Source: Microbacterium sp. (GTDB taxonomy: Bacteria > Actinomycetota > Actinomycetes > Actinomycetales > Microbacteriaceae). Taken from it: a stretch of 64,000 nt of DNA. Below are positions 26,660 to 60,791 of the stretch, in pieces. Positions within the stretch are counted from its first letter, which is position 1. Each line of letters begins with the position of its first letter. The position numbers were made by a program, and so were the translations under genes. The notes beneath the pieces were generated by a model. The model ran no database searches. It saw nothing but the letters and a program-made list of their open reading frames with translations, and was not told where the DNA came from. The stretch lies in assembly GCA_017306415.1 (NCBI GenBank), contig JAFKIL010000003.1, positions 248,001-312,000 of the forward strand. Direction: 5' to 3'.

Positions 26660-26739
26660 GGGGTGACCTAACGTTGAACCACGGATGAACGCCCGACGAC
26701 ATGCGCCGGCCCCCACCAGCTAACCAGAAAGACCGTCAC

Positions 26740-28131
26740 ATGCCCCCTCGCACCGTCGCCGTCATCCTGGCCGGCGGGATCGGCTCGCGCGTCGGCCTCG
26801 GCATCCCGAAGCAGCTCATCAAGATCGCCGGAAAGGCGATCGTCGAGCACACGCTCGAGGTCCTCGACGCGAACCCGTTGATCGACGACATCGTGATCGT
26901 CATGAACGCGGCATCGATCGGCGAGCTCGACGGCCTGAAGGATCCCCTGCGCTTCCCGAAGCTGTCGCGCATCATCGCCGGGGGCGCGACGCGGAACGAC
27001 TCGACGAGGGCGGCACTGGCCGTTCTCGGCGACGATCCGGACACGAAGGTGCTGTTCCACGACGCCGTCCGGCCGTTCATCGACGACAGGATCATCGCCG
27101 ACTGCATCGTGGCCCTGGACACCTACGACGCCGTCGACACGGCGATCCCGTCGGCCGACACCATCGTGGAGGTCGACTCCGCTTCGCTCATCACCGACAT
27201 CCCGGACCGCTCCCGGCTGCGCCGCGGCCAGACCCCGCAGGCCTTCCGGCTGGGGACCATCCGCCGCGCCTACCGACTCGCGGAGGACGACGAGTCGTTC
27301 CAGGCGACGGACGACTGCGGCGTGGTCTTCCACTACCTCCCCGACGTGCCGATCCACGTGGTCGAGGGCACGCCGGAGAACATGAAGGTGACCGAGCCGA
27401 TCGATGTGCACATCGCCGACAAGCTGTTCCAACTCCAATCCGAGAGCCTGTCGGCGGATGACGGCGACCTGCCCGATCTCTCCGGCCGGACGGTCGTGGT
27501 GTTCGGCGGCAGCTACGGAATCGGGCGGAGCATCGTGGATCTCGCGCTCCGGGCGGGTGCGGACGTGCATCAGTTCAGCCGGTCGACGACGGGCACCGAC
27601 GTCCGCTCGCGCGTGCTGGTGAAACGCGCGCTCAGCGCCGTGTACGAGCAGACGGGGCGGATCGACGCGGTCGTGCTGACCGCGGGCGTGCTGCAGGTAG
27701 GTCCCCTGTCCGAGACGAAGGTGCGCCGGCTGGAGGCCGTGATCGAGACGAACTTCGTCGCCCCGGTCATCGTTTCGCGCGCGGCTTTCAAGTACCTCCG
27801 CGAGTCGCGCGGGCAGCTGCTGTTGTTCACCTCGAGCTCCTACACGCGCGGCCGGGCGAATTACGGCGTCTACTCGGCCAGCAAGGCGGCGGTCGTGAAC
27901 CTCACCCAGGCGCTGGCCGAGGAGTGGGCACCCGACGCGGTCGCCGTCAACTGCATCAATCCCCAGCGCACCCGCACCCCGATGCGCACGGCCGCGTTCG
28001 GAGAAGAGCCGCCCACGACGCTCCTCGAACCGGAGCACGTCGCTCAGGTGAGTCTCCGTGTCCTCGCGTCCGACCTGACGGGGCAGGTCGTGACCGTCCG
28101 CGTGGAGCAGCCGGGCGCTCCGCGCGCCTAG
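26740..28131 (+). CDS. Bifunctional ribitol-5-phosphate cytidylyltransferase / SDR reductase (Bcs1-type CDP-ribitol synthase)
   Basis: This is a 463-residue fusion. Residues 1-235 form an IspD/TarI-type cytidylyltransferase with VILAGGIGSR and a conserved Lys in IPKQ, plus HDAVRPF and TPQAF. Residues from about 250 form a short-chain dehydrogenase with a FGGSYGIG nucleotide-binding motif, catalytic SSSY and YSASK (Tyr378, Lys382). The same domain order in Haemophilus Bcs1/Acs1 reduces ribulose-5-phosphate to ribitol-5-phosphate and makes CDP-ribitol. The same reaction is inferred here and fits the neighbouring phosphotransferases. I chose the ATG at 26740 for the canonical N-terminus. The stop shares a CTAG palindrome with the convergent galE. 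Confidence 0.88.
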   Translation: MPPRTVAVILAGGIGSRVGLGIPKQLIKIAGKAIVEHTLEVLDANPLIDDIVIVMNAASIGELDGLKDPLRFPKLSRIIAGGATRNDSTRAALAVLGDDPDTKVLFHDAVRPFIDDRIIADCIVALDTYDAVDTAIPSADTIVEVDSASLITDIPDRSRLRRGQTPQAFRLGTIRRAYRLAEDDESFQATDDCGVVFHYLPDVPIHVVEGTPENMKVTEPIDVHIADKLFQLQSESLSADDGDLPDLSGRTVVVFGGSYGIGRSIVDLALRAGADVHQFSRSTTGTDVRSRVLVKRALSAVYEQTGRIDAVVLTAGVLQVGPLSETKVRRLEAVIETNFVAPVIVSRAAFKYLRESRGQLLLFTSSSYTRGRANYGVYSASKAAVVNLTQALAEEWAPDAVAVNCINPQRTRTPMRTAAFGEEPPTTLLEPEHVAQVSLRVLASDLTGQVVTVRVEQPGAPRA

Positions 28132-39477: not shown

Positions 39478-39618
39478 CTAGCACACGACGTGGAAATTCG
39501 ATGTATGCGTGCGGCGTGTTTTGTGGGTATCTTCGTATCACCATCCACAAGGTCCCCACCAACAACACCAATAACACCGTCCCCACTCCACCGCATGCTC
39601 CATCCCCAGGGAGGCATG

Positions 39619-41253
39619 ATGCGGCGTCGCCTTGCCATTGGCACCGTCCTCACCGTTCTCATCGGCACGCTCTTCTCGGTCGCCGCGGCGTCACCCGCGC
39701 CTGCGACAGCAGCCACGGGAAACGCCGGGAGCGTCTTCACGCTCACCAACCAGCAGCGCACGAACGCGGGCCTGCGGGCCCTCGCGACGGACGCCGCGCT
39801 CGATGCGGCCGCGCAGGCATGGGCCCAGCACCTCGCCAGCACGTGCACCTTCGAGCACAGCACGAGCTCGTGGCGCTCCAGCCAGACCTCGTCGGCGGGC
39901 TGGGTCGCGACCGGGGAGAACATCGCGGCGGGCTACTCGACGCCGGGCGACGTCGTGACGGCGTGGATGAACTCCGCCGGCCACCGCGCGAACATCCTCG
40001 ACTCGCGCTACACCGGCCTGGGCGTCGGCTACGCGATCGGACCCTGCTACGGCACGTACTGGGTGCAGATCTTCGGCATCGGGCTCCCGCCGATCCCGAA
40101 GATCGGCACGGTGTCCGTCACCGGCACCGCGGCCGTGGGCGGCACACTGCGGGCGACGACGACGGGCTGGTCGAGCGGCGTGTCGCTCGCATGGCAGTGG
40201 CTGTCCGACGGCAAGGCGATCCCTGGCGCGACATCGACGTCCTACACGCCGACGATCGCCGACGGAGGCAACCGCATCCAGGCGCGGGTGACCGCACGGC
40301 TGTCGGGATACTTCCCCGCGAACGTGAACTCCGCCGCAACGGCGGCCGTCACCGGGGCGCCACCGACCGATCGGGTGTGGGGCGACTCGCGCTACGGGAC
40401 GTCGGCGGCCATCGCGACGCGCGCCTTCCCCAACGGCGCGGACATCGCGTACATCGCTTCCGGGTCGACGTTCCCGGACTCGCTCAGTGCCGCACCTGCC
40501 GCCGCCTTCGGCTCGGGCCCCCTCCTGCTCACCGCGCCGGATCAACTGCCCGACGCCGTGAGGACGAGCCTCATCTCGCTGGCGCCCCACCGCATCGTCA
40601 TCGTCGGCGGCGACGGCGCGGTCTCCGCTGCCGTCGAGGATCAGCTCGACGCCATCGCCCCGACGACCCGCATCGGGGGCACCGACCGCTACGAGACGTC
40701 GCGCAACCTCGTCGCGTCCGCCTTCACGTCCGCCTCCGTGGTCTACCTGGCCACGGGTGCGACGTTCCCCGACGCGCTCACCGCCGGAGCGGCCGCCGGT
40801 GCGCAGCACGTCCCGGTCATCCTCGTGCCCGGCGGCGCGAAGGCCGTCGACTCCCAGACGCTCGCGCTGATCTCGCAGCTCGGTGCGACCACCGTCCGGA
40901 TCGCGGGCGGGACCGGAGCCGTGAGCGCGGGCATCGAGTCGTCGCTGAAGGCCAAGGGCTTCACGACGCAGCGCCTGCAGGGCGCGGACCGCTACGCCAC
41001 CGCGGTCGCGATCAACCGGCAGGCGTTCTCGTCCGCCGACGTGGCGTTCCTCTCCAGCGGCACGACCTTCCCGGACGCGCTGTCCGGATCGGCGGCCGCC
41101 GGCGCACTCGGCCAGCCCCTGTACACCACACCGTCCACGTGCCTGTCGAGCGCGATCGACAAGGGGCTGACCGCGATGGACCCGTCGCGGATCACCCTGC
41201 TGGGCGGAACGGGCGCGCTCACGAGCTCGGTCGCCACGCTCTCGCGCTGCTGA
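39619..41253 (+). CDS. Secreted CAP-domain protein with cell-wall-binding repeats
   Basis: This is a 544-residue exported protein. It has a signal peptide (basic start, hydrophobic core, AATA cleavage region near residue 30). A CAP/SCP domain follows (about 35-160) with GENIAAGYS and WMNSAGHRANIL. An Ig-like repeat (about 165-245) comes next, and then three cell-wall-binding-2 repeats, recognised by DRYETS, DRYATA and the segments ATFPDALTAGA and TTFPDALSGSA. Such repeats anchor proteins non-covalently to wall polymers in several Gram-positive bacteria. The adjacent GtrA and glycan genes suggest an envelope role; the CAP domain may be catalytic or adhesive. Either ATG, 39616 or 39619, is possible; GGGAGG fits 39619 better. 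Confidence 0.9.
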   Translation: MRRRLAIGTVLTVLIGTLFSVAAASPAPATAATGNAGSVFTLTNQQRTNAGLRALATDAALDAAAQAWAQHLASTCTFEHSTSSWRSSQTSSAGWVATGENIAAGYSTPGDVVTAWMNSAGHRANILDSRYTGLGVGYAIGPCYGTYWVQIFGIGLPPIPKIGTVSVTGTAAVGGTLRATTTGWSSGVSLAWQWLSDGKAIPGATSTSYTPTIADGGNRIQARVTARLSGYFPANVNSAATAAVTGAPPTDRVWGDSRYGTSAAIATRAFPNGADIAYIASGSTFPDSLSAAPAAAFGSGPLLLTAPDQLPDAVRTSLISLAPHRIVIVGGDGAVSAAVEDQLDAIAPTTRIGGTDRYETSRNLVASAFTSASVVYLATGATFPDALTAGAAAGAQHVPVILVPGGAKAVDSQTLALISQLGATTVRIAGGTGAVSAGIESSLKAKGFTTQRLQGADRYATAVAINRQAFSSADVAFLSSGTTFPDALSGSAAAGALGQPLYTTPSTCLSSAIDKGLTAMDPSRITLLGGTGALTSSVATLSRC

Positions 41254-46956: not shown

Positions 46957-48249
46957 CTATGCCGCACCCACCACGATCCGGGGGGTTCCGGCCCAGGTCG
47001 CGGGGTCGGTCGCGTTGCGCCCGTCGACGAGGAGCCGGATGCCTGGGAGGTCCGCCGGGGCCAGCGCGCGGTAGTCCGCGTGGTCGGTCTGCAGCACAGC
47101 GACATCGGCGGCGTCGCCGAGTGCGTAGGGGTCGAAACCGAGCGCCCGCAACTCGTCGTCGTCGTACAGCGGGTCGTGGACGCGGACGCGGGCGCCCCGC
47201 GCCGTCAGCGCCGCCACGGTAGGAAAGACGCCGGAGAACGCGGTCTCCTTGACGCCCCCGCGATAGGAGGCGCCGAGCACGACAGCCTCCAGCCCCGTGA
47301 GGTCACCGAGGATCCCGGCCGCCTGCGCCACCAGTCGCTCGGGCATGGACGCGTTCAGCAGTCGTGCGGTGCGCACGATGTCGGCATCGGGATCCGTCGA
47401 GAGATAGAGCCTCGGATACACCGGGATGCAGTGCCCCCCGACGGCGATGCCCGGACGATGGATGTGGCTGTACGGCTGCGAGTTGCACGCCTCGATGACC
47501 TGGTAGACGTCGATGCCGTGCTGCGCCGCGAACAGCCCGAACTGGTTGGCGAGCCCGATGTTGACGTCACGGTAGGTGGTCTCGGCGAGCTTGGCCATCT
47601 CGGCGGCCTCAGCCGTGCCGAGGTCCCATACGCCGTTCGGGCGGGCGAGATCGGCCCGCTCGTCGAACTGCAGCACCGCCTCGTAGAACTCGCGTGCTCG
47701 GCGCGCACCCTCCGGCGACAGTCCGCCGATGAGCTTGGGGTACTTGCGCAGATCGGCGAAGACCCGGCCGGTCAGGACGCGCTCCGGCGAGAACACGAGG
47801 TGGAAGTCGGTGCCCTCGACGAGCCCCGAACCCTCCTCGATCATCGGCTTCCAGCGCCCGCGCGTCGTCCCCACCGGCAGGGTGGTCTCGTACGAGACGA
47901 GTGTGCCGGGGGTGAGGTGCGCGGCGAGGGACCTGGTCGCGGCGTCCATCCACGCGAAGTCGGGCTCCCACGTGGTGTCGTTCACGAAGAGCGGCACGAC
48001 GAGCACGACCGCGTCGGCGCCGGGGATCGCCTCGGCGTAGTCGGTGGTCGCGCGCAGCCGCCCGGCGGGCACGAGCGCGCTCAGCTTCTCCTGCAGGCCG
48101 GCCTCGCCCGGGAACGGCTCGCGCGCCTCGTTGACAGCCGTGACCGCCCGCGCGTCGACGTCCACGCCGATGACGTCGTGACCCGAATCGGCGAACTGGA
48201 CGGCGAGGGGAAGCCCGATCTTTCCGAGGGCGACGACGGCGATGCGCAT
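46957..48249 (-). CDS. Nucleotide-sugar 6-dehydrogenase (UDP-GlcNAc or UDP-ManNAc type)
   Basis: This is a 430-residue UDP-glucose/GDP-mannose dehydrogenase-family enzyme that oxidises a hexose C6 to a carboxylate in two steps. It has the nucleotide-binding LGKIGLPLA, LVVPLFVND, SPERVLTG and the catalytic Cys in GGHCIPVYP. This subgroup includes WecC (UDP-ManNAcA) and WbpA (UDP-GlcNAcA). With the UDP-GlcNAc 2-epimerase at 51036 it can yield UDP-ManNAcA; with the Gfo/Idh/MocA and aminotransferase genes it fits a WbpA role. The ATG at 48249 follows TAGACT by 7 nt. Confidence 0.88.
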   Translation of the reverse strand: MRIAVVALGKIGLPLAVQFADSGHDVIGVDVDARAVTAVNEAREPFPGEAGLQEKLSALVPAGRLRATTDYAEAIPGADAVVLVVPLFVNDTTWEPDFAWMDAATRSLAAHLTPGTLVSYETTLPVGTTRGRWKPMIEEGSGLVEGTDFHLVFSPERVLTGRVFADLRKYPKLIGGLSPEGARRAREFYEAVLQFDERADLARPNGVWDLGTAEAAEMAKLAETTYRDVNIGLANQFGLFAAQHGIDVYQVIEACNSQPYSHIHRPGIAVGGHCIPVYPRLYLSTDPDADIVRTARLLNASMPERLVAQAAGILGDLTGLEAVVLGASYRGGVKETAFSGVFPTVAALTARGARVRVHDPLYDDDELRALGFDPYALGDAADVAVLQTDHADYRALAPADLPGIRLLVDGRNATDPATWAGTPRIVVGAA

Positions 48250-48256
48250 GGATTCC

Positions 48257-48262
48257 AGTCTA
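48257..48262 (-). promoter_or_regulatory. -10 box TAGACT for a leaderless nucleotide-sugar dehydrogenase mRNA
   Basis: Minus-strand TAGACT is followed by 7 nt and the ATG at 48249. Confidence 0.5.
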
Positions 48263-48291
48263 GGCGGCGGCACGACGGCACTCGGCGCGCA

Positions 48292-48322
48292 GACGGCCCC
48301 GGCCATGCGGGCCGGGGCCGTC
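48292..48322 (-). terminator. Hairpin terminator after the cell-wall-binding-repeat gene
   Basis: There is a perfect 13-bp inverted repeat (48292-48304 and 48310-48322) with a 5-nt loop, 15 bp past the stop of the gene ending at 48338. It has no T-tract. It separates that gene from the dehydrogenase, which has its own -10 box. Confidence 0.65.
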
Positions 48323-48337
48323 GTCACGCGGAGTGGG

Positions 48338-49750
48338 TCAGCCGCACACGAACAACTGCTCGACGTCGGTCGACAGCGCTCCCTGGCCACCCAGGAGTAG
48401 CACGCCGTTCGAGCGCTGGTCGGTGATGCCGGATGCCGCGCCCTGGGTGATGCAGCGCGGGTCCGTGAGGAACAGCGGCGCGCCGAGGGAGCCGGCGAGC
48501 GGCGCTCCCGCGAGCGCGTCGGGGAAGTTCGCCCCGCTCGCGAGCAGCGAGAAGTCCGTCACCGGGAACGTGTTCGCGTTGATCTCAGCGGCCGTGTCGT
48601 AGCGGGAGGCGCCGGCGAGGCGGACGACGTGGTCTGCGCCGAACGCGCTCTTCAGCCCGTTCTCGATGCCGGTCGACACCGCACCGGTGCCCCCGGCGAT
48701 GATGACGAGCGTGACACCGAGGTCGGTCAGCAGCTTCTTCGTCGCCGCGGGGAGCGTGGTGGAGTTCCCATCGGTCAGGATGACCGGGCCGCCCATGTAG
48801 CCCGCCGCAGGACCGGCAGCCAGGGCGTCGGGGTAGTTGCGGCCCGTGGCGACGATCGCGACGCTCTGGCCGCCGGACGTGAAGGCGTCGCGGACGATCT
48901 TCTCGCCGGTCTCGTAGCGGCTGGCGCCGCCGAGACGGGTGACGACTACGCCGGCGTTGCCCTTCTGTGCGGCCTTCTTCGCCGCCGCGAGCACGGCGTC
49001 GGAGACGGCGCCGGTGCCGCCGGCGACGACGATGCGAGCCGGAGCGAGGCGCGTGAGTTCCGCCGCGGTGGCGGCCGGCAGGCTCGTCGCCGCCGTCGTC
49101 AGGAGGACGCCGCCGTGCTTGATCGCGGCCGGGCCCGCAGCGAGCGCGTCGGGATAGTTCATCCCGTTCGCGAGATAGACGACGTCGGGGCTCCCGCTCG
49201 GGTACATCGACTGCGACACCTCGACGGCCGTCCCGAACCGGTCGGCCCCGGCCACGCGGCCGACGTCGAAGGCGTGCGGGTGCAACGTCACGATGTTGAG
49301 GGGTGTGACGGTCGCACCCGTGAGCACGATGTCGTTGGACTCCGCGAAGTAGCGCTTGTCCTGCCACCACTCGACGCCGATCGACTTCGCGTCGGCCTGG
49401 AACCGGATCGTGTAGGTGCCGGCCTCCAGGACGGGCGACGTCCAGACGTTGCCGGTCGGGCCCGTCCACGTGCGCGAGTCCTCGACGAGGTCGTAGTAGC
49501 CGGTGTCGGGGTCGAGCTTCCAGAACTCGACGGTGACCTCGGAGTTCGGCGACAGCGTCTGCGGCCCGCCGGACGACGGCTGATACTGGATCGTCGCGCT
49601 GACCTGCGCCTCGGTGGAGGAGAGCGCGGCGGCGACGACGTGGGCGGGAGGCGCCGCGGCGGCGACGGGCGCGGCATGCGCGGCGGAGGCGCCGAACACC
49701 CCGATCCCGAGCGCGACGACGGTGGTGAGGGCGATGTGACGAGCGCTCAT
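48338..49750 (-). CDS. Secreted protein with three cell-wall-binding-2 repeats
   Basis: This is a 470-residue exported protein. The N-terminal signal peptide has the AHA-A cleavage site near residue 27. A domain of about 110 residues with a carboxypeptidase-regulatory/Ig-like look (SGGPQTLSPNSEVTVEFW) follows. Three CW-binding-2 repeats come next, marked by DRFGTAVEV, SRYETGEKI and SRYDTAAEI, with NYPDALAAGPAA or NFPDALAGAPLA. It has no evident enzymatic domain, so it may be a structural or binding protein on the wall. A TACGAT -10 candidate at 49791-49796 and GGAGA nine nt before the ATG support the start. A hairpin terminator follows. Confidence 0.9.
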   Translation of the reverse strand: MSARHIALTTVVALGIGVFGASAAHAAPVAAAAPPAHVVAAALSSTEAQVSATIQYQPSSGGPQTLSPNSEVTVEFWKLDPDTGYYDLVEDSRTWTGPTGNVWTSPVLEAGTYTIRFQADAKSIGVEWWQDKRYFAESNDIVLTGATVTPLNIVTLHPHAFDVGRVAGADRFGTAVEVSQSMYPSGSPDVVYLANGMNYPDALAAGPAAIKHGGVLLTTAATSLPAATAAELTRLAPARIVVAGGTGAVSDAVLAAAKKAAQKGNAGVVVTRLGGASRYETGEKIVRDAFTSGGQSVAIVATGRNYPDALAAGPAAGYMGGPVILTDGNSTTLPAATKKLLTDLGVTLVIIAGGTGAVSTGIENGLKSAFGADHVVRLAGASRYDTAAEINANTFPVTDFSLLASGANFPDALAGAPLAGSLGAPLFLTDPRCITQGAASGITDQRSNGVLLLGGQGALSTDVEQLFVCG

Positions 49751-49868
49751 TCCGAGCGTTCTCCGTTCTGCGGGAGGGATGGGTCGCGTGATCGTAACAC
49801 CCCCAGGAGATTCTAAGAAGTCGCACATGCAACTCCCATCCGGGACGTCCGGGCTCGGCGCCGTCCGA

Positions 49869-50966
49869 TCAGCGCGCCCGGGACCGCGCGTGCGCGACAG
49901 CGTCGGCATAGACCCGCGCGTAACCGCGCCGACGGCTTTCGTCGGTGAAGCGCGCGCGGACGGCTGCCGCGATCTCGGCGGCCGTGCGCGTCGCGTTCAG
50001 GTCGATCACGCGCTCCACGGCCCCCGCGAACGCCGCCGCCGTCCGGCCGTCGACGAGGACGCCGTCTGGCTCGTGCACGAACTCGGCCTGACCCCCGTTC
50101 GCGCCGACCACGACAGGCCGTCCGCTCGCGAGCGCCTCGGCGATCGACACGCCGAAGGTCTCCCCCGCGGTCGGAAGGAGGAACACGTCGGCAGCCGCCA
50201 GCTCCTCGAGCACCCGCTCGGTGGGCAGCGTGCCGACCAGCGCGATGCGGTCGGAGATGCGCAGGCGGAGGGCGAGCGCCTCCACCTCGTCGCGCATCGG
50301 ACCCGACCCGATCCACCGCAGCGAGACATCCATGCCCCGCCGCGCGAGCTCGGCGGTCGTCTCCACCGCGATGTCGGGGCCCTTGCGCGGAACGAGGCCC
50401 CCGACGGCGACGAGGGACACCCTCCCGGCCGTCAACGAACGACGCTCCGGCACCTGGGCGAGATGCTCCACCGCGTTGGGGACGATCTCGACCGCACCCG
50501 CACGGGACCGGCGGATCGCGTCGGCCAGGCGGTCCCCCACCGCGACGACGACGTCCGGGCGCCGCATCAGCCGCAGGGTGGCCGGGAGCGCGAGCCGCAC
50601 CGGGAGGGGCAGGGTCTCGGGCGCGAGGATGCCCGACAGATGCTCGGTGTGCACCCAGGGTGTCGCCGAGCGGAGGCGCCGGAACGGAAGGAGGGCGGAC
50701 GCGGCCATCGTGTGCAGGAGGTCGAACCGCTCGACCATCGGAGCGAGGCGGCGCGCGGCGGATCGGACGCTGAGCGGATTCGACGCGGACATCGCGATCG
50801 TCTCCACACCCCACGCCCGCTCGGCGGAGGGCGCGGGCGCCGACGACAGGTGGACCACGTGCACCTCGTGGTCCCGCGCGAGCAGGTCGATGTCCCGCTC
50901 GATGAACACGCCCGTGGCCGGCGACGACGGCGTGGGGAGCCAGGTCGTCACGATGAGAACGCGCAC
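49869..50966 (-). CDS. Glycosyltransferase family 4 (GT-B)
   Basis: This is a 365-residue GT-B enzyme of the GT4 family. The N-terminal domain starts with MRVLIVTTWLPTP and contains TGVFIERDI; the C-terminal donor domain has the GGLVPRKGPD motif and the EX7E-type region FGVSIAEALASGRPVVVG. It probably transfers a sugar from a nucleotide donor to an undecaprenyl-linked acceptor at the membrane. The GTG at 50966 follows TACGGT by six nt (50973-50978), so the mRNA appears leaderless. It is divergent from wecB with 69 bp between starts. Confidence 0.9.
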   Translation of the reverse strand: MRVLIVTTWLPTPSSPATGVFIERDIDLLARDHEVHVVHLSSAPAPSAERAWGVETIAMSASNPLSVRSAARRLAPMVERFDLLHTMAASALLPFRRLRSATPWVHTEHLSGILAPETLPLPVRLALPATLRLMRRPDVVVAVGDRLADAIRRSRAGAVEIVPNAVEHLAQVPERRSLTAGRVSLVAVGGLVPRKGPDIAVETTAELARRGMDVSLRWIGSGPMRDEVEALALRLRISDRIALVGTLPTERVLEELAAADVFLLPTAGETFGVSIAEALASGRPVVVGANGGQAEFVHEPDGVLVDGRTAAAFAGAVERVIDLNATRTAAEIAAAVRARFTDESRRRGYARVYADAVAHARSRAR

Positions 50967-51027: not shown

Positions 51028-51035
51028 GGTGGCCC

Positions 51036-52106
51036 GTGAAGGTCATCAGCGTCGTCGGAGCACGCCCGCAGTTCGTGAAGCTCGCCCCCATCGCCCACGC
51101 GGCGGCCGACGCCGGGATCGAGCACGTCATCGTGCACACCGGGCAGCACTACGACCCGATGCTCTCCGACGTCTTCTTCGAGGACCTCGGGATACCTGCA
51201 CCGGACGTCCACCTCGGGGTGGGATCAGCCGGTCACGGCGTGCAGACCGGCGCGATGCTGGGTGCTCTCGACGGCGTGTTCGACGAGCACCGCCCCGACT
51301 GGGTGCTCGTCTACGGTGACACCAACTCCACGATCGCCGCCGCGCTATCGGCCGTGAAGCTCCACCTTCCGGTCGCGCATCTCGAGGCGGGGCTGCGCTC
51401 GTTCAACCGGCGGATGCCGGAAGAGCACAACCGCGTCCTGACCGACCATGCCGCGGACCTGCTGCTGGCCCCGACGGACGGGGCTGCCGCGCACCTGACC
51501 GACGAGGGCCTCGCCGCGCGCACCGTCGTGGTGGGCGACGTCATGACGGATGTGCTGTTCCAGGTGCGCGACCGGGTGGCCGGGGCGCCGTCCCGGCTGG
51601 TCGAGGAGCTCGGACTCACCCCGGGCTCCTTCTCCGTCGCCACGATCCACCGCGCGGAGAACACCGACGATCCGGAGCGTCTGGCCGACATCGTCGCCGG
51701 TCTCTCGTCGCTCGACCACCGTGTCGTGCTCCTCGCTCACCCCCGCCTGGCCTCGCGCGCGGCCACGGCGGGGATCCCGCTCACGACCGGCTCGCTGGTC
51801 TCGCACCCGCCCCTCGCCTACCCCGACCTGATCGCGGCGGTCCTCGCGAGCCGGGCCGTCGTCACCGACTCCGGGGGTCTCCAGAAGGAGGCGTTCCTGC
51901 TCCGCGTGCCCGCCACGACGGTGCGCACCGAGACCGAGTGGGTCGAGACGATCGCCCTCGGCTGGAACGTCCTCGCGAACACCGCCGACGAGATCGCTGC
52001 GGCGGTCGGCCGCCCACGGCCGGCGGACACGGATGCCGCGCCCTACGGCGACGGGCATGCCGCCGACCGCGTCGTGCGCGCGCTGCTCTCCCGCGCGGGC
52101 GCCTGA
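51036..52106 (+). CDS. wecB: UDP-N-acetylglucosamine 2-epimerase (non-hydrolysing)
   Basis: This is a 356-residue enzyme interconverting UDP-GlcNAc and UDP-ManNAc, or the WbpI-type reaction on a diacetamido uronate. It has GARPQFVK and HTGQHYDP, then GDTNST, HLEAGLRS, PEEHNR and DSGGLQKEA, all signature segments of the family. The GTG at 51036 follows a TAGGCT box, and upstream in-frame sequence is a shadow of the GT4 gene. A GT2 gene follows after 18 bp. The sequence alone does not tell WecB from WbpI. Confidence 0.9.
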   Translation: MKVISVVGARPQFVKLAPIAHAAADAGIEHVIVHTGQHYDPMLSDVFFEDLGIPAPDVHLGVGSAGHGVQTGAMLGALDGVFDEHRPDWVLVYGDTNSTIAAALSAVKLHLPVAHLEAGLRSFNRRMPEEHNRVLTDHAADLLLAPTDGAAAHLTDEGLAARTVVVGDVMTDVLFQVRDRVAGAPSRLVEELGLTPGSFSVATIHRAENTDDPERLADIVAGLSSLDHRVVLLAHPRLASRAATAGIPLTTGSLVSHPPLAYPDLIAAVLASRAVVTDSGGLQKEAFLLRVPATTVRTETEWVETIALGWNVLANTADEIAAAVGRPRPADTDAAPYGDGHAADRVVRALLSRAGA

Positions 52107-53209: not shown

Positions 53210-54346
53210 TCAGCCGTGCGAGCGTGACCTGCTCGTCGCCGCGGTGAGGACCGATGCCACGCGCTCCTGCTGCGCCCGGGTGAGGTGCGGGAACATCGGG
53301 AGCGAGAGGATGCGCGCGGCCGCGCGCTCGGCGACCGGGAACTGGCCGCGGCGGTAGCCGAGCCCGGCGTAGGCGTCGGTCAGGTGCAGCGGAGTCGGAT
53401 AGTGGATCGCCGCCCCGACACCGGCGGCGGCGAGATCGGCCAGCACGCGGTCGCGCTCCTCGACGCGCACGACGTACAGGTGCCAGACGTCGCGGTTGCC
53501 GCTACGGGTGCCGGGGAGGCGGACGCCGGGGGATGCGGCGAGGAGGTCGGCGTAGCGGTCGGCTGCCGCGGCTCGCGCGGCGTTCCAGTCGTCCAGCCGG
53601 CGCAGCTTCGCCGACAGCGCGACCGACTGGACCGCGTCCATGCGGGAGTTGCGTCCGACGCGATCGTGGACGTACTTGACCGAGCTGCCGTGCGCCCCGA
53701 GGTTGCGGACGACGTCGGCGAGGGCGGCGTCATCGGTCATCACGGCACCCGCGTCGCCCGCGGCGCCCAGGTTCTTTCCGGGGTAGAAGCTCGTGGCGGC
53801 GATCGTCCCCAGCGCGCCGGCACGGCCCGCGGCGGACACCGCCCCCTGGGACTGCGCGGCGTCCTCGACGATGGCGATCCCGCGTCGCGCGGCGAGCGGC
53901 GCGAGCGCCTCGACCGGCGCGGTCTGTCCGAACAGGTGCACCGGCACGATGGCACGCGTGCGCTCCGTGATCGCGGACTCCGCCGCGGCGGGGTCGATGA
54001 GCAGCGTCTCGTCGTCGACGTCGACGAAGACGGGCGTGGCGCCGACCGCGGTGACCGCCTCCGCGGTCGCGATGAACGTGTTCACCGGGAGGATGACCTC
54101 GTCGCCCGCCTGGATGCCGAGCGCGCGGTACGCGAGCTCCAGCGCATCCGTCCCGTTCGCGACCCCGACGACGTGCTCCACGCCGATGTACGCGGCGAAC
54201 TCCCGCTCGAAAGCGGCCACGTCCGGGCCGCCGACGAAGTGCGCAGCCCGGAGCAGGCGCTCCCACGCGGCGAGGACCTCGTCGGCCACCTCTGCCTGCT
54301 GCGAGACGAGGTCCAGGAACGGGACTGCGGGCGCTCCGTCGGCCAT
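53210..54346 (-). CDS. DegT/DnrJ/EryC1 aminotransferase (WbpE-like)
   Basis: This is a 378-residue PLP enzyme that aminates a keto nucleotide sugar. It has VANGTDALELAYRALG, VEDAAQSQGA, and the catalytic Lys in SFYPGKNLGAAGDAGA. The sequence type is close to WbpE/WlbC, which makes the 3-amino group of UDP-2,3-diamino uronates, and the adjacent oxidoreductase matches the required partner. The ATG at 54346 has AAGGAG eight nt upstream; the GTG at 54355 would sit on top of that site and is rejected. The 3' end faces the GT2 gene with 8 bp between stops. Confidence 0.88.
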   Translation of the reverse strand: MADGAPAVPFLDLVSQQAEVADEVLAAWERLLRAAHFVGGPDVAAFEREFAAYIGVEHVVGVANGTDALELAYRALGIQAGDEVILPVNTFIATAEAVTAVGATPVFVDVDDETLLIDPAAAESAITERTRAIVPVHLFGQTAPVEALAPLAARRGIAIVEDAAQSQGAVSAAGRAGALGTIAATSFYPGKNLGAAGDAGAVMTDDAALADVVRNLGAHGSSVKYVHDRVGRNSRMDAVQSVALSAKLRRLDDWNAARAAAADRYADLLAASPGVRLPGTRSGNRDVWHLYVVRVEERDRVLADLAAAGVGAAIHYPTPLHLTDAYAGLGYRRGQFPVAERAAARILSLPMFPHLTRAQQERVASVLTAATSRSRSHG

Positions 54347-54410
54347 CGCGGTCACTCCTTCGATTCGGGCGCCGCGTGCGGGCGGCGGCAGGTTCGTGGT
54401 GGCGACGCGC

Positions 54411-55448
54411 TCAGGCGACGCCGGACGGGGCGGCCGAGGCGAGCTCGAGGTCCCGGCTCGCCGCCTCCAGGACGTTCAGCACGCGCAGGCCGGATGCGCC
54501 GTCCGTGCGCGCGGGCCGGCCCTCGCGGATGGCGGCGGCGAACTCCTCGACCATCGCCGACAGCGCCTCCCGCTCGGCCAGCGCGGGAGCCCACGTATCG
54601 CCGAGCCGGTACGACACCATCGCCGCGATGCGGTCCTGCCCGACACCCGTCTGGTGCGGGAGATCGATCCCACGGTCATACATGCTCAGCCGCTGCTGCG
54701 GATTGAGGTCGTCCCAGACGAGCGTGCGGCGGGAGCCGGCGATCACCATCTGCCGGATCTTCGTCGGGCTCATCCAGTTGACGTGGACGTGGACCATGCC
54801 CCCGTTGGGGAGCGGCGTCATGAGATGTCCTACGCACGCCTTCCCGGCCCCGAGAGGGTCGGCCCCGTAGGCGGAGACCTCCGTGGGGACGAGACCACCC
54901 GGGAGGATGAAGTCGATGATCGACAGGTCGTGCGGCGCGAGATCCCAGAAGACGTCGACGTCCGGCTGCACGAGCCCGAGGTTGATGCGGGTCGAATCGA
55001 CGTAGAGGATGTCGCCGAGCGCCCCCTCCGCGATGAGCTCGCGGATCTTCTGGACCGCCGTCGTGTAGCAGTAGGTGTGATCGGTCATGAGGACCAGACC
55101 CCGGCGATGGGCCTCGTCGTTCATCTCCCGCGCGCGCTCGCTCGACTCCGCCATCGGCTTCTCCACGACGACGTGCTTGCCCGCCGCGAACGCCTTCATC
55201 GCGAGCGGGTGGTGGGTGCGCGCCGGGGTGGCGATCGCGACGGCGTCGATCGAGGGGTCCGCAAGGACGTCGTCGATGTCGGTGAAGACGGGGACGCCGC
55301 CGACGGAGGATGCCACCTGCTGCGCCCTCGCGGCATCCAGGTCGACGATCGCCGCGAGCTCCCAGAACGGGGAGGAGGTGAAGTTGCGTGCGAGGTTCGG
55401 ACCCCAGTAGCCGGCGCCGATCACGGCGACGCGGAGGTGTTCAGGCAT
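54411..55448 (-). CDS. Gfo/Idh/MocA family oxidoreductase (WbpB/WlbA-like)
   Basis: This is a 345-residue NAD-dependent enzyme. It has GAGYWGPNLARNF for NAD binding and VEKPMAESS with the conserved Lys, then FWDLAPHDLSIIDF. The WbpB/WlbA type oxidises C3 of UDP-GlcNAcA so that an aminotransferase can add nitrogen. The aminotransferase gene is 64 bp downstream in the same direction. The ATG at 55448 follows TACCGT by 7 nt (55456-55461); a GTG three codons earlier is possible. Confidence 0.88.
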   Translation of the reverse strand: MPEHLRVAVIGAGYWGPNLARNFTSSPFWELAAIVDLDAARAQQVASSVGGVPVFTDIDDVLADPSIDAVAIATPARTHHPLAMKAFAAGKHVVVEKPMAESSERAREMNDEAHRRGLVLMTDHTYCYTTAVQKIRELIAEGALGDILYVDSTRINLGLVQPDVDVFWDLAPHDLSIIDFILPGGLVPTEVSAYGADPLGAGKACVGHLMTPLPNGGMVHVHVNWMSPTKIRQMVIAGSRRTLVWDDLNPQQRLSMYDRGIDLPHQTGVGQDRIAAMVSYRLGDTWAPALAEREALSAMVEEFAAAIREGRPARTDGASGLRVLNVLEAASRDLELASAAPSGVA

Positions 55449-55455
55449 ATGGGCC

Positions 55456-55461
55456 ACGGTA
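55456..55461 (-). promoter_or_regulatory. -10 box TACCGT for a leaderless oxidoreductase mRNA
   Basis: Minus-strand TACCGT is followed by 7 nt and the ATG at 55448. Confidence 0.45.
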
Positions 55462-55481: not shown

Positions 55482-57863
55482 TCAGGCGCGGATCCACTGC
55501 TCGCGTAGGACGGCCGCGCTGATCCGCCCATCGTGGACCGTCGCGACGAAGGCCGCTCCGTCGATCCCGAGGCGCGCGCGTCGCTCCGGATCCGTGGCGA
55601 GCCCGAGGACGACCCCCTCGATCGTGTCGGGATCGGCCTCGACGAGGGGCAGCGCCATGCCGGACACCTGCTCCACGGTCCGCCGGACGTCCTCCAGGAC
55701 GTGACCGACCACGACCGCGCCCGCGGCCATGGCCTCGCACGCGGCGACGCCGTACGACCCCAGCCGGAACTGGTCGAGCACGATGTCGGCATCCGCCCAC
55801 GTCGCCGGCATCTGCGCGGAGGGCACCCCCGCGGTGATCTCGCGGTACTCGATCACGCCGCGATCGTGCAGACGGCGGAGAGCGGGCCGGATCAGGTCCG
55901 TCCCCTTGATCCAGGGGTTCGTCGGGAGGTGCGCGACCACGGGCACCGCACGGGCCGGAGGGCGGTCCGGTGCGCGCCAGCGGTCCACGTCGACTACCAC
56001 GGGGCACCAGTGAGCGAACGGGAGGTCGGCGAGCAGATCGGGCGTCGAGACGAAGGTGGGCCGGCCGAGGCGCGTGAGCAGCGCGATGTTGCGCTCCGCC
56101 TCGATCTCGTGCCGCGCGAGATAGATGTCGGTGTCGAGGTAGGGCGACCACACGGTGCGGGTCGCGTGACGGCTCGGCAGGCGGACGTCCGTCCCATGGG
56201 CCATGTAGGCGGTCGACACGCCCGCCGCCGTCAGGATGTCGGCCTCACGGGCGACGTCGCGCAGGAACAGGCGCCCGAACAGGGGCTTCTCGGCCTCCAC
56301 GAGAACGTGAGTGAAGCCCCGGACGGCGTCCAGCTGCGCCCGCTGCCACGTGCGCGACCTCTGGTAGACCGCGACGGGCACCTCCGTGTCGGCGCGGAAC
56401 GCGTAGCCGCCCGGACTCACGACGCTCATGTTGCGGCACTGCAGCCGCGGATCCGCGGACTCGAGGGCGCGCGCCCACGCGTAGCCCTGCTCGGAGTAGT
56501 TGACCGGCCCGATGTACACGCGCACCGCTGCGTCGGGTACCGCGGTGGGCGGCGGAACGTCCTGCGGGCGCACGCGCCCGAAGCGCAGGGCGGCGATCCT
56601 CCCCGGGATGCTGGCGGGATGGTCGGCGACGTACTCGATCACGCGATTCGCCCACGACGGCAGCCGCCCGCGGGAGCGCGCCGCCGCGGTGCCTCGCTGC
56701 GTCGGAGTCAGGGGGCCGTCCGGACCCGGTGCGACGCCGGGACCAGCAGCACTCGGACGGTCGCCCGGAGCCGGCCGCAGGAGGATCGCCGCCCGGCGGA
56801 GCGGGCTGTCGACGGCGAACACGGCGAGCGGGGACGCGGTGATCGCCCGCGTCAACCGCGGGCTGCGGTGATGCCGCTCGGCGGCGGCGACGAGCGCGTG
56901 GGAGTCCCGGGCCGACGCGGCGGCGAGCACGCGGCGGTCCGCGATGGAGAGGCTGGCCAGGCCGCGGGGGTCGAGCGCGGAGAGCCACGCGGCCACGTCC
57001 GCGACCGCGTCAGCGTCCGTCGCGGACCACTCCTCGGGATCGGGACGCCGCAGCACCGCCGGGACGAGGATGAACCGCGCCATCATCACGGCCACGGCGG
57101 TGCGGGCGGCCGGTTCGAGTGCGGCGATCCACGGGCGTTCCCGGAGACGCGTGAGCGCCTCGAGATCGCGCGAGGCCGGGCGCGATGTCGTCGTGACGCG
57201 TTCCTCCTCCTCGTCGCTCAGCACGTAGCCGGGCAGCGACGGATCGTAGGACACCACGCCACCGCGCGTCACGAGGGCCAGCGACAGCTCGATGTCCTCC
57301 CCGGTCGCGACCCCCTCGCTCAGCGTGACGCCCAGCCGGTCCAGGTATTCGCGCCGGATGAGCCCGAACAGGGCGAGGCGGTAGGCGAGCCGATCCCGAC
57401 CGGCGTCGAGCGCGGTGAGCCGCCCGCGCCGCGTGAGCGGGTCGCGCAGCGCGCGGCCGCGGAGGTCTCGCTGGGGGCCGATGAGGTAGTCCGACCCGAA
57501 CGCGCGCGCCGCCTCGACCCAGCGGTCGATCGTGCCCGGCTCGAGATAGTCGTCGGAGCCGAGCAGCATCACGTACGGCGCCGATCCGGCGCGGATCCCG
57601 GCGTTCATCGGCCCGGCCGGTGAAGGGACGCCGTCGGAGAACTCGAGTACGCGGACGCGCGGATCGTCGCCGACAGCGCCGAGCGCCGCCCGCATGTCGT
57701 CAGCCGAGAGGTGGTGGGCGACCACCGTCACGCGCACGGCTGCGCGGCCCGCGAGCGCGGATGCGACCGCCCGCGTCACGGGCCGGCGCAGATCGTGGTT
57801 CGCGATCACGACGTCGACGACCGGCGCATCCGCCCCGTGAGTCACGTCTTCCGGACCCGTCAT
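55482..57863 (-). CDS. Fused glycosyltransferase: GT2 domain plus GT-B-like domain
   Basis: This is a 793-residue protein. Residues about 15-330 are a GT2 domain with VVIANHDLRRPVTRAVA, LGSDDYLEPG and TGEDIELSLAL. After a Pro/Gly-rich linker (about 390-430), residues about 450-790 form a GT-B-like domain with VYIGPVNYSEQG and FVSTPDLLADLP. The WIKGTDLIRP and ADADIVLDQFRLGSYG motifs follow. The two halves correspond to the stand-alone proteins at 52125-53201 and 60844-62070. It overlaps the upstream GT4 gene by ATGA (57860-57863). It could add two sugars in succession to the same acceptor. Confidence 0.88.
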   Translation of the reverse strand: MTGPEDVTHGADAPVVDVVIANHDLRRPVTRAVASALAGRAAVRVTVVAHHLSADDMRAALGAVGDDPRVRVLEFSDGVPSPAGPMNAGIRAGSAPYVMLLGSDDYLEPGTIDRWVEAARAFGSDYLIGPQRDLRGRALRDPLTRRGRLTALDAGRDRLAYRLALFGLIRREYLDRLGVTLSEGVATGEDIELSLALVTRGGVVSYDPSLPGYVLSDEEEERVTTTSRPASRDLEALTRLRERPWIAALEPAARTAVAVMMARFILVPAVLRRPDPEEWSATDADAVADVAAWLSALDPRGLASLSIADRRVLAAASARDSHALVAAAERHHRSPRLTRAITASPLAVFAVDSPLRRAAILLRPAPGDRPSAAGPGVAPGPDGPLTPTQRGTAAARSRGRLPSWANRVIEYVADHPASIPGRIAALRFGRVRPQDVPPPTAVPDAAVRVYIGPVNYSEQGYAWARALESADPRLQCRNMSVVSPGGYAFRADTEVPVAVYQRSRTWQRAQLDAVRGFTHVLVEAEKPLFGRLFLRDVAREADILTAAGVSTAYMAHGTDVRLPSRHATRTVWSPYLDTDIYLARHEIEAERNIALLTRLGRPTFVSTPDLLADLPFAHWCPVVVDVDRWRAPDRPPARAVPVVAHLPTNPWIKGTDLIRPALRRLHDRGVIEYREITAGVPSAQMPATWADADIVLDQFRLGSYGVAACEAMAAGAVVVGHVLEDVRRTVEQVSGMALPLVEADPDTIEGVVLGLATDPERRARLGIDGAAFVATVHDGRISAAVLREQWIRA

Positions 57864-59008
57864 CGGCGCGGCGACTCCGGCTGCACCGCGATCGCGTCGA
57901 TCGCGCGCTCCCATCCGACGACCTGCGCGTCCGCGGACAGCTCGCGCGCTGCGGCATCCGATGCGGCAGCGAAGCCCGCGACCGCGTCGGGCGTCAACAT
58001 GTCGAGGGCGACGGCGAGCGCATCCGCGGTGAAGTCGGACGTCACGACCCCGAGCCCGCGCGTCTCGACGGTGCCGGCCATCTCCGGCGACGGCCCGACG
58101 ATGAGCCCCAGCCGCGCCTGAACGTAGTCGAAGAACTTGTTCGGGAGCGCCCAGCGGTTGTTGAAGTTCCCCGGGGGAAGGACGTGCACGCCCATGTCAT
58201 AGGCGGTGAGGGTGGGGATGAGCCGGTCGTAGGGCACCGGGTCGAGGACGCGCACGCGTCCGCTCGTCGTCTCGGCCATCGCCTTCAGCTCGGCCAGGTG
58301 GTCTGGTTCGTGGGGCATGAGATACATGTCGAGCTCGACCTCGGCCCTCGACCGCGCCACCCCGTCGATCAGCAGGGTCAGATCGCGGTTGCGCAACGCC
58401 GCTCCGCTGTGCACCAGCCGGATCGGGCTGCCGACGGCGTGGGGGCGGATGTCGCGGAACGGCGTGGCGTTCGTGACCACACCCGGACGGAACCCGAACT
58501 CCTTCTCGTACTCCTCCGCAAGCCCTCGGCCCACCGTGGTCGTCGACGCGACGCGCGCCACGAACCGGCGGCACAGCCAGCGGGCGTAAGGCGCCCGCCA
58601 GAACACCCAGGCCGGCACGTCGTCGTGCAGACGCGGGTAGTACTCGTGGAGATCGACGTGGATCCGCGACGCGGGCGCGAGCTCCAGCGCGATCGGCGCG
58701 GTCTCCGCCTCGTTCGCGAGCACGACGTCGAACGTCCTCCCCCGCAGGAGCCGTCGCGCCTCCTGCACGGCGCTCGTCGACGAGTACGCGGCCCGGTACT
58801 GGCGAGCCGCGATGAGACGGAAGTCGGTGTCGAGCGCCCCGTACTCGGCGCCGATCTCGAGGTGCTCCGCCGCCCCGTCCGGCGCCGGGCCGTAGCCGCA
58901 CGTCGTGACGCGGTAGCGATCGGCGAACGCGCGTACCTGCTTGAGCACCCGCGCGTCGTCCACGATCGGCGAGAACGAGATGATCAGCAGCGAGGGGCGT
59001 TCAGGCAC
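57860..59008 (-). CDS. Glycosyltransferase (GT4-like, GT-B fold)
   Basis: This is a 382-residue enzyme. The N-terminal domain has LLIISFSPIVDDARVLKQV and DLHEYYPRLHDD. The donor domain has RLVHSGAALRNRDL, LPPGNFNNRWALPNKFFDYVQARL and the C-terminal Glu-containing region. The GTG at 59008 lies inside the end of the ABC exporter gene (8-bp overlap), and the stop overlaps the fused glycosyltransferase gene. All three should be one transcript. Confidence 0.88.
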   Translation of the reverse strand: MPERPSLLIISFSPIVDDARVLKQVRAFADRYRVTTCGYGPAPDGAAEHLEIGAEYGALDTDFRLIAARQYRAAYSSTSAVQEARRLLRGRTFDVVLANEAETAPIALELAPASRIHVDLHEYYPRLHDDVPAWVFWRAPYARWLCRRFVARVASTTTVGRGLAEEYEKEFGFRPGVVTNATPFRDIRPHAVGSPIRLVHSGAALRNRDLTLLIDGVARSRAEVELDMYLMPHEPDHLAELKAMAETTSGRVRVLDPVPYDRLIPTLTAYDMGVHVLPPGNFNNRWALPNKFFDYVQARLGLIVGPSPEMAGTVETRGLGVVTSDFTADALAVALDMLTPDAVAGFAAASDAAARELSADAQVVGWERAIDAIAVQPESPRR

Positions 59009-60791
59009 CGGCGACCTCGAGGCCGGCCAGCCGCGCCTGCTCCCGGAAGTCGGGCACGATCCGCTGGAGGTCGTCGAAGCTGCCCGTGGCGACGACGCGG
59101 CCGCCGTCCAGGTAGGCGATCGTGTCGAAGTGTCGGATCGTCGCCAGGCGATGGGCGACCGCGATGACCGTCACGTCGCCCTCGAGCGCGCGGATGGCGT
59201 CCGCGACCGCCTCCTCGGTGCGGCCGTCCAGCGCGCTCGTGGCCTCGTCGAGGACGAGCACGAGCGGGTCCGAATACAGCGCACGCGCGATACCGAGTCG
59301 CTGGCGCTGGCCTCCGGACAGGTTCGAGCCCCGCTCGGTCAGCATGGCGTCGATGCCCTCCGCGCGCGCGTTCACGACGTCGTCGAGCTGCGCGCGATGC
59401 AGCGCGTGCCGCACGCGGTCCGGATCGTAGTCGTCGCCCCACGTGAGCGCGACGTTCTGGGCGATGGTCGCCGAGAAGATCCCGACCGACTGCGGGACGT
59501 ACGCCACGCGGCCGCGCCAGCTGCGCCGGGCGGCGTCGATGGGCACGCCGTCGACGGTGACGGTACCGGAGGTCGGGCTGGACAGCCCCAGCAGGATGTC
59601 GACGAGTGTCGACTTGCCCGCACCCGTGGGTCCGGCGATGCCGAGCGAACTGCCGAACGGGATGCGGAGGTCGACGTCGTGGAGGACCTCGGCGCCGCCG
59701 CTGGTGTACCGGAACCCGACGTCCGCGAGGACGAGCTCGCGGGGCCGCGCCGGCAGCGTCATGGTGTCGGCGAGCTCGGCCTCGCTGACCGCCGTCTCGG
59801 CGCTGACGATGTCGGCGACCACGTTCTTGGCGTGGATCTCGTTGGCGGACGCCTGGGAGAGGCTGCCCTGGACGGTGTTGATGGCCGGCAGCATCCGGAA
59901 GCCGGTGATCGTGAAGAGGGCGATGGCGACGATCGCCTGCTGGAAGCCGCTGGTCGCCAGGGCCACGCCGCCCACGATGAGGAGCCCGACCATCAACGCG
60001 GACTCCATCGCGTAGCGCGGCACGATCGTGAGGAAGGAGATGTTCGCCCGCGCACGCGCCGCGTGGACCCGGATCTCGCGCACGTGCTGCCGTACCGCAC
60101 CCAGGCGGTCACGCAGCGTGAACTCCTTCAGCGCCTCCACGAGCTCGGTCAGCACGCCTGCGGCGCGATAGGCGAAGGTCCGGTTGACCCGGCCCGCCTG
60201 GGCGACCTTCTTCGAGAGCACCATCGACATGAGCAGCGCCACCCCGATCAGGTACGCCATCACCGCGAGAGCGCTGAGCGGCTGCGCGACGAGCAGCACG
60301 ATCGCGACGGACAGGAAGGAGACCACGTTGGGCGGGATGCTCGAGAGCGGGATCAGGAAGCCCATGATCGTGTTGGCGATCCCGGTGTCGGCGACGCGCG
60401 TGATGTCGGACGTCTTGCGGCGCGACCGCTCCTCCCACGTGAGCTGGGTGTACGCGCCGAACAGGCGGTCACCGATCTCCAGCTCGTACACCGCCAGACG
60501 GCGGGTCGCCCACCACTGCATCAGGACGGTGGACCCGCCCTTGAGCATGATGAGTCCGCACGCGAGGGCGATGAGCCAGGGCGTGGAGGACACCGGGATC
60601 GTGCCGATGACCGGGAGCCTGACGGGCGTTCCCGTCAGGGCCGGCGACATCACGAGCGCGATGATCCCCATCGAGACGATGTCGAGGAGCGCGAGGAGGC
60701 TCGAGAACACGACGAAACGCACGTAGAAGCGCTCCGCCTTCCCCGGCAGGATGCGGAGGACCTGGCGAAGCGTGAGGTACAGCGATCGCAC
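59001..60791 (-). CDS. ABC exporter with fused membrane and ATPase domains (PglK/MsbA-like)
   Basis: This is a 596-residue half-transporter. It has six transmembrane helices (about residues 20-310) and an ATPase domain with Walker A GPTGAGKST (near 385-393), Q-loop VPQSVGIF, signature LSGGQRQRLGIARAL and Walker B VLVLDEATSALD. Homodimers of this type flip lipid-linked oligosaccharides (PglK) or lipids (MsbA). Coupling to a GT4 and the fused glycosyltransferase argues for glycan flipping. The GTG at 60791 has AGGAGA upstream; a TAAACT -10 candidate is at 60841-60846 (minus strand). Confidence 0.9.
   Translation of the reverse strand: MRSLYLTLRQVLRILPGKAERFYVRFVVFSSLLALLDIVSMGIIALVMSPALTGTPVRLPVIGTIPVSSTPWLIALACGLIMLKGGSTVLMQWWATRRLAVYELEIGDRLFGAYTQLTWEERSRRKTSDITRVADTGIANTIMGFLIPLSSIPPNVVSFLSVAIVLLVAQPLSALAVMAYLIGVALLMSMVLSKKVAQAGRVNRTFAYRAAGVLTELVEALKEFTLRDRLGAVRQHVREIRVHAARARANISFLTIVPRYAMESALMVGLLIVGGVALATSGFQQAIVAIALFTITGFRMLPAINTVQGSLSQASANEIHAKNVVADIVSAETAVSEAELADTMTLPARPRELVLADVGFRYTSGGAEVLHDVDLRIPFGSSLGIAGPTGAGKSTLVDILLGLSSPTSGTVTVDGVPIDAARRSWRGRVAYVPQSVGIFSATIAQNVALTWGDDYDPDRVRHALHRAQLDDVVNARAEGIDAMLTERGSNLSGGQRQRLGIARALYSDPLVLVLDEATSALDGRTEEAVADAIRALEGDVTVIAVAHRLATIRHFDTIAYLDGGRVVATGSFDDLQRIVPDFREQARLAGLEVAGA

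Follow-up and report, generated by a model that had tools for sequence, protein, structure and literature searches.

The described proteins closest to the one reported here are glycosyltransferases (GTs) of two kinds. The wall-teichoic-acid transferases TarS, TarP and RmlT combine a GT-A catalytic domain with a helical C-terminal part. In TarS, D93 and D94 are metal ligands, D178 is the base, and a non-catalytic C-terminal module mediates trimerisation and has a possible role in processivity (PMC5156392). The GT4 retaining transferases PimA, MshA, BshA and PglA have a GT-B fold with a C-terminal nucleotide-binding half. Joined GTs are a kind already known, since in the Klebsiella/E. coli O-antigen polymerases WbdA, WbbB and O7 ORF6 a single glycan pathway has two or more GT modules that are variably split or fused, and protein contacts have been shown (PMC11231755). 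TagF-like capsule polymerases likewise carry a glycosyltransferase and a second transferase in one chain, the partner being a polyol- or hexose-phosphate transferase (PMC5974469). The protein described here joins a GT2 domain to a GT-B domain. It shares with the O-antigen polymerases the split or fused GT modules, but those systems are Gram-negative and have coiled-coil ruler proteins and chain terminators, whereas our protein has a different set of GT domains and an adjoining MsbA/PglK-like exporter. It also differs from the TagF-like polymerases in its partner domain, although another protein of that general kind is encoded nearby (30973-33702). A literature search over titles and abstract openings, with most subscription papers outside its reach, returned no description of this GT pair in fused form.

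The window, a 64,000-nucleotide stretch of a Microbacterium sp. genome, looks like a wall-glycopolymer locus from its gene content (Table 1). Microbacteriaceae have cell-wall glycopolymers of diverse chemistry, and, to our knowledge, few of the transferases that build them have been assigned. The window also encodes a pyruvyl transferase, a GlfT2-like protein, GLF, an ABC-2 permease, a Wzy_C protein, two DegT aminotransferases and a NeuD-type acetyltransferase. Pathway knowledge suggests that the WecB, UDP-ManNAc-dehydrogenase-like, Gfo/Idh/MocA, DegT and NeuD-type proteins together would supply UDP-ManNAcA and an amino sugar. There are two PF04464 proteins, one of them fused to a GT2 domain; one also matches NCBIfam TarL below cut-off. 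The NCBIfam matches of the IspD+SDR protein include D-ribitol-5-phosphate cytidylyltransferase, just below cut-off. A LytR-CpsA-Psr (LCP) gene, one of four matches in the genome, lies about 14 kb past the window end (G000:C4:326066-326647). Two further proteins of the window (39490-41253, plus strand; 48338-49909, minus strand) each have three CWB2 cell-wall-binding stretches, and one also has a CAP domain. In clostridia, CWB2 proteins attach to secondary wall polymers, and the polymer of this locus could be the ligand of these two.

Table 1. Features of the fused gene and its surroundings (window positions). GT2w and GTBw denote the GT2 and GT-B families to which the N-half and the C-half belong, and also their stand-alone members in the window.
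Feature	Position	Strand	Basis
Fused GT2 - GT-B glycosyltransferase, 793 aa	55482..57863	-	Single open frame
N-half, TarS/TarP/RmlT-like GT2 domain, residues 1-364	56772..57863	-	Pfam PF13641/PF00535 above cut-off, TarS profile match, fold
Pro/Gly/Ala-rich linker, 35 aa, residues 365-399	56667..56771	-	Comparison with four unfused relatives; codon-position GC
C-half, GT4-like GT-B domain, residues 400-793	55485..56666	-	Predicted model, Foldseek, profile vs PDB GT4 enzymes
GT2w, stand-alone paralogue of N-half, 358 aa	52125..53201	+	BLASTP, GT2 tree
GTBw, stand-alone paralogue of C-half, 408 aa	60844..62070	-	BLASTP, GT-B tree
GT4n, GT4-type glycosyltransferase, directly upstream of fused gene	57860..59008	-	Pfam PF13579/PF13439 just below cut-off; recurrent neighbour
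ABC exporter, MsbA/PglK type, start approximate	59001..60698	-	Pfam ABC_tran above cut-off; NCBIfam MsbA-related and PglK below theirs
Gfo/Idh/MocA oxidoreductase, UDP-sugar 3-dehydrogenase-like	54411..55457	-	Pfam PF01408; best NCBIfam match UDP-GlcNAc 3-dehydrogenase, below cut-off
DegT/DnrJ sugar aminotransferase	53210..54355	-	Pfam PF01041, E 2.8e-111
WecB, non-hydrolysing UDP-GlcNAc 2-epimerase	51030..52106	+	NCBIfam TIGR00236 above cut-off
Nucleotide-sugar dehydrogenase, UDP-ManNAc dehydrogenase-like, start uncertain	46957..48390	-	NCBIfam TIGR03026 above cut-off; UDP-ManNAc dehydrogenase models next, below theirs
GT4b, GT4 glycosyltransferase, partner in other module fusions	49869..50966	-	Pfam PF00534
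GT2 domain joined to PF04464 polyol-phosphate transferase, TagF-like polymerase architecture	30973-33702	+	Domain match
IspD-type cytidylyltransferase joined to SDR dehydrogenase, TarI/TarJ-like (CDP-ribitol) pair in one chain	26701-28131	+	NCBIfam matches below cut-off

A preliminary description had recognised a fused glycosyltransferase at 55482-57863. The open reading frame is real, but its strand needs correcting: it runs on the minus strand from an ATG at 57863 to a stop at 55482-55484, and the plus-strand translation of the same stretch contains stops. Its start codon shares the sequence ATGA with the stop codon of the transferase gene just upstream (59008-57860). The domain scan and the models of the two halves, which were aligned and modelled separately, place two GT domains in one chain; no second ORF with this GT2 - GT-B architecture was found among the loci domain-scanned. 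Both halves have a relative in the window, as the preliminary description had it for the first ~330 residues and the second half. The N-half matches GT2w at 41% identity over 356 columns (BLASTP, E 2e-59) and the C-half matches GTBw at 49% over 344 columns (E 3e-88), nearly full length in each case. SDD and GED motifs are generic for GT2; the likeness of the N-half to GT2w goes further, since it runs through the whole family-specific sequence and seven further residues (H23, R27, R31, H50, D157, R162 and R222) are invariant in 22/22 aligned members. In a search of the genome itself, the strong relatives were these two stand-alone proteins, and one weak GT2 match lay near 41.9 kb. Each family has two strong members in this genome, one alone and one fused. 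The three genes span 9.9 kb, within the 11 kb first proposed.

The N-half resembles the wall-teichoic-acid transferases in both sequence and predicted fold. Searched against solved structures, the GT2w profile found TarS first (E 3.4e-13; profile positions 6-326 against TarS 5-327) and then TarP (1.5e-12). A Foldseek search with the predicted structure of residues 1-360 (pLDDT 87.5) gave TarS, TarP and RmlT as its 45 best matches (TM 0.62-0.73 on the query), and the match takes in the GT-A catalytic domain and the helical C-terminal part. D104, D105 and D190 align with the metal-binding and catalytic acids D93, D94 and D178 of TarS and are invariant in 22/22 members and in 100% of a wider set of 62; E189, aligned with TarS E177, is invariant in the 22 and falls below 90% in the 62. 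Identity to TarS, TarP and RmlT is 12-17%, and TarS D91 and R75 are not kept in the N-half, where the aligned positions hold Gly and a non-Arg residue; these are details of TarS that are not known to define the whole TarS/TarP/RmlT group. A further difference is that TarS has its trimerisation module where the fused protein has the GT-B domain.

The GT-B branch, which the preliminary description could not place, is GT4-like by profile and predicted fold. In Foldseek with the model of residues 396-793 (pLDDT 94.1), the GT4 transferases PimA, MshA and BshA matched best (TM 0.37-0.58 on the query over the best 50 matches, which also include some other GT-B enzymes and a UDP-GlcNAc 2-epimerase), and the GTBw profile matches PDB GT4 enzymes. 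Model and profile thus agree on a GT-B fold with a GT4-type C-terminal half, at 10-17% identity to PimA, MshA, BshA and PglA. No curated GT4 family model exceeded its cut-off for the fused protein (PF13692, 17.5 bits vs 27); 35/56 GTBw members match PF13692 at E<=0.01. The E-X7-E motif of GT4 is incomplete in GTBw: with the register of the alignment set by eye, the first position is Gly in 99% of 120 sequences and the second is Glu in 90%. We therefore describe the C-half as GT4-like without assigning it to GT4; as the first Glu is missing, its catalytic activity is not assured. This substitution, together with the precedent of the non-catalytic C-terminal module of TarS, would suit a C-half that is no longer an active transferase and instead binds the acceptor or acts as a scaffold for the GT2 domain. 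We consider such a role improbable, since the GTBw family consists mostly of stand-alone genes and conserves polar residues in the manner of an enzyme (R166, D298 and D302 throughout, H161 and K258 in at least 90% of 56 members), and loci hold up to four GTBw ORFs.

The origin of the fusion was examined in trees of the domains from fetched loci (80 GT2w and 137 GTBw rows after removal of duplicates; quick method with SH-aLRT support). In the GT2 tree, the N-half falls in a clade of five with GT2w genes of the genomes G448, G079, G025 and G102 (support 100). In the GT-B tree, the C-half groups with GTBw genes of the same four genomes, again as a clade of five (SH-aLRT 89, below the program's star at 95). 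All four have GT2w directly upstream of GTBw on the same strand as separate genes, and each of these loci has a second GT2w and further GTBw genes. Since both halves group with adjacent separate genes of the same four genomes, the fused protein is best read as a derived join of a pre-existing adjacent GT2w>GTBw pair. The stand-alone GT2w and GTBw of the window fall in other clades in both trees and are best read as older paralogues of the fused halves. The preliminary description had equated the fusion with these two neighbours joined together; both trees rule out that origin. It had also raised the question of whether fusion or split came first, and the trees make it most likely that the genes were separate first and fused later. 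The reverse, a fusion that later split, is not favoured, because the four closest genomes have the separate pair and no other fused case appears among the matches listed for 299 family and 198 same-genus genomes.

The junction is consistent with this polarity. In the four relatives, the GT2w stop is followed after 17-60 nt by an ATG in a different frame, which we took as the GTBw start; in G084, outside the clade, the adjacent pair shares one frame with a single TAG between. In the fused protein, GT2 homology continues up to the stop position and is followed by 35 Pro/Gly/Ala-rich residues; the GT-B homology begins again at RLPSWANRVIEYVADHP, a position some 20 residues into the GTBw of the relatives. 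By comparison with these four, the linker replaces the GT2 stop, the intergenic DNA and the first ~20 residues of GTBw. GC content at the three codon positions is.86/.81/.77 over residues 358-400 and.79/.55/.91 and.75/.50/.92 in the coding flanks, as expected if non-coding or frame-shifted DNA had been drawn into frame. The fused frame is known from one assembly. At residue 385 of the linker, directly behind a stretch of five C, another frame contains a TGA; a small indel could therefore end GT2 there, and the cell would make two proteins. We regard an assembly or sequencing artefact of this sort as highly improbable: between residues 364 and 412 there is no ATG in any frame, only three GTG codons and no SD-ATG like that of the four relatives, and both flanks of the linker have strong coding composition in the same frame.

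A profile search of 299 family genomes (GTBw called at E<=1e-30; up to 6 or 7 candidates per genome scored) found GTBw in 36, GT2w in 31 and both in 26, with 5 holding only GT2w and 10 only GTBw (Fisher 1.9e-24, genomes counted as independent). The two genes lie within 10 kb of each other in 24/26 genomes and within 500 bp in 13/26; in the remaining two they are on different contigs or 88 kb apart. This co-occurrence supports the proposal that the separate GT2 and GT-B proteins work in the same pathway. A match over both halves in one frame was found only in the genome itself among the matches listed for the 299 family genomes and 198 genomes of the same genus, two overlapping samples in which the best 3 to 5 candidates per genome were scored, so misses are possible. 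With one genome only, selection for this exact fusion cannot be claimed. A scan of a genome collection with the stand-alone GT-B protein gave 36 loci: 35 strong, all from Actinomycetes, and one weak, from Flavobacteriales.

Taken with the gene neighbourhood, we think it reasonably probable that the fused protein is a derived GT2w-GTBw fusion acting as a two-step cytoplasmic transferase in the synthesis of a secondary wall glycopolymer, and that the stand-alone GT2 and GT-B proteins are paralogues serving other residues. The homology, the tree grouping, the lost start and stop codons and the intact GT2 metal-binding and base acids are read from sequence, and from them we infer the function. The N-terminal inverting GT2 domain would add one beta-linked sugar, and the tethered GT4-like domain would place a second sugar on the same growing oligosaccharide. 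The lipid-linked form of the glycopolymer may then be moved out by the neighbouring MsbA/PglK-type exporter, relatives of which are present in 46/49 loci with GT2w. Tethering would hold together two consecutive enzymes of a multi-transferase assembly, while other residues, of this polymer or of a sister polymer, would be added by the stand-alone GT2 and GT-B.

The resemblance to TarS, TarP and RmlT raises another reading, in which the GT2 half, like these enzymes, glycosylates poly-ribitol-phosphate wall teichoic acid and the GT-B half lengthens the side chain into a disaccharide. Transferases of ribitol-phosphate teichoic acid are indeed what the GT2 half matches best in fold and profile, and the window has its two PF04464 proteins (one TarL-like below cut-off) and the IspD+SDR protein. 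Strong PF04464 matches (best E below 1e-12, a cut chosen on seeing the list) are also commoner in GT2w genomes, with 22/31 vs 132/299 overall (p 0.002, genomes counted as independent). However, 9/31 GT2w genomes have no strong match, including G079 and G102, two of those with the unfused pair; G025 has one, and G448 is outside the sample. A need for poly-ribitol phosphate would imply PF04464, so these nine genomes speak for another acceptor in at least part of the GT2w family, and G079 and G102 favour an oligosaccharide. In addition, the regular export neighbour is of the MsbA/PglK type and not the ABC-2 type of teichoic acid systems, and the ABC-2 permease gene of the window is 17 kb away. 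The teichoic acid reading therefore seems rather unlikely to us; the PF04464 and IspD+SDR genes of the locus, together with G025 and G448, keep it under consideration.

Fusions of other members of the module were found by domain scan (~ denotes domains in one ORF, in order). GT4b~GT2w occurs in six ORFs at five non-duplicate loci (L010 and L125 are on the same contig), GT4b~GTBw in one (L127) and GTBw~GTBw in two. Both orders, GT4n~GT2w and GT2w~GT4n, occur in one genome (L104), and L123:11208-14669 is a triple fusion, GT2w~GT2w~GT4n. GTBw precedes another GT4 domain in seven Kribbella/Jiangella ORFs by scan, with an eighth, L019, by length only, and follows one in six ORFs of Janibacter/Knoellia/Ornithinimicrobium and kin. 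The GT4 partner in both groups matches GT4n weakly (41-86 bits) and is treated as another GT4 branch; Pfam GT4 domains were present in both scanned partner cases (L014 and L034). Long ORFs with unaccounted stretches (nine with GTBw, nine with GT2w) were left out of the fusion counts, except that L019 is named beside its Kribbella kin and labelled fused in the state-change count below. At L085:4903-7284 (G091), GT4n similarity is divided among four ORF pieces that overlap, which looks like two copies with a frameshift in each.

We counted neighbouring domain pairs on one strand, no more than 400 nt apart, in 81 loci picked for holding these GTs and searched for ten gene families: 19/148 GT-GT pairs shared one frame, compared with 0/92 GT-nonGT and 0/59 nonGT-nonGT pairs (Kribbella type left out). 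The excess has p 8e-7 when pairs are counted as independent, and several loci supply two of the 19. The GT2w tree requires at least 7 state changes, or 6 when just fused against single is scored, and the GTBw tree at least 6 (five Yinghuangia rows left out), so changes between single and fused forms happened several times. We tentatively propose, as a possibility suggested by these sequences, that GT2w, GTBw, GT4n and GT4b form a wall-glycopolymer module of Actinomycetes that works as a physical multi-enzyme assembly line, its members having fused repeatedly in varied pairs and orders and, in the loci examined, not with the adjoining sugar-nucleotide or export genes.

The single GT2w~GTBw fusion is by itself a modest finding, and more interest lies in the recurrent network of GT-GT fusions. 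With a TarS-like family that often has a GT4-like partner and whose members fuse repeatedly, the joined pairs become candidates for consecutive enzymes, and the GT module may serve as a set of markers for this type of wall polymer. If the assembly-line reading is true, transferases that act one after the other would be recognisable by their fusions, which could be used to deduce the order of sugars in an unknown wall polymer.
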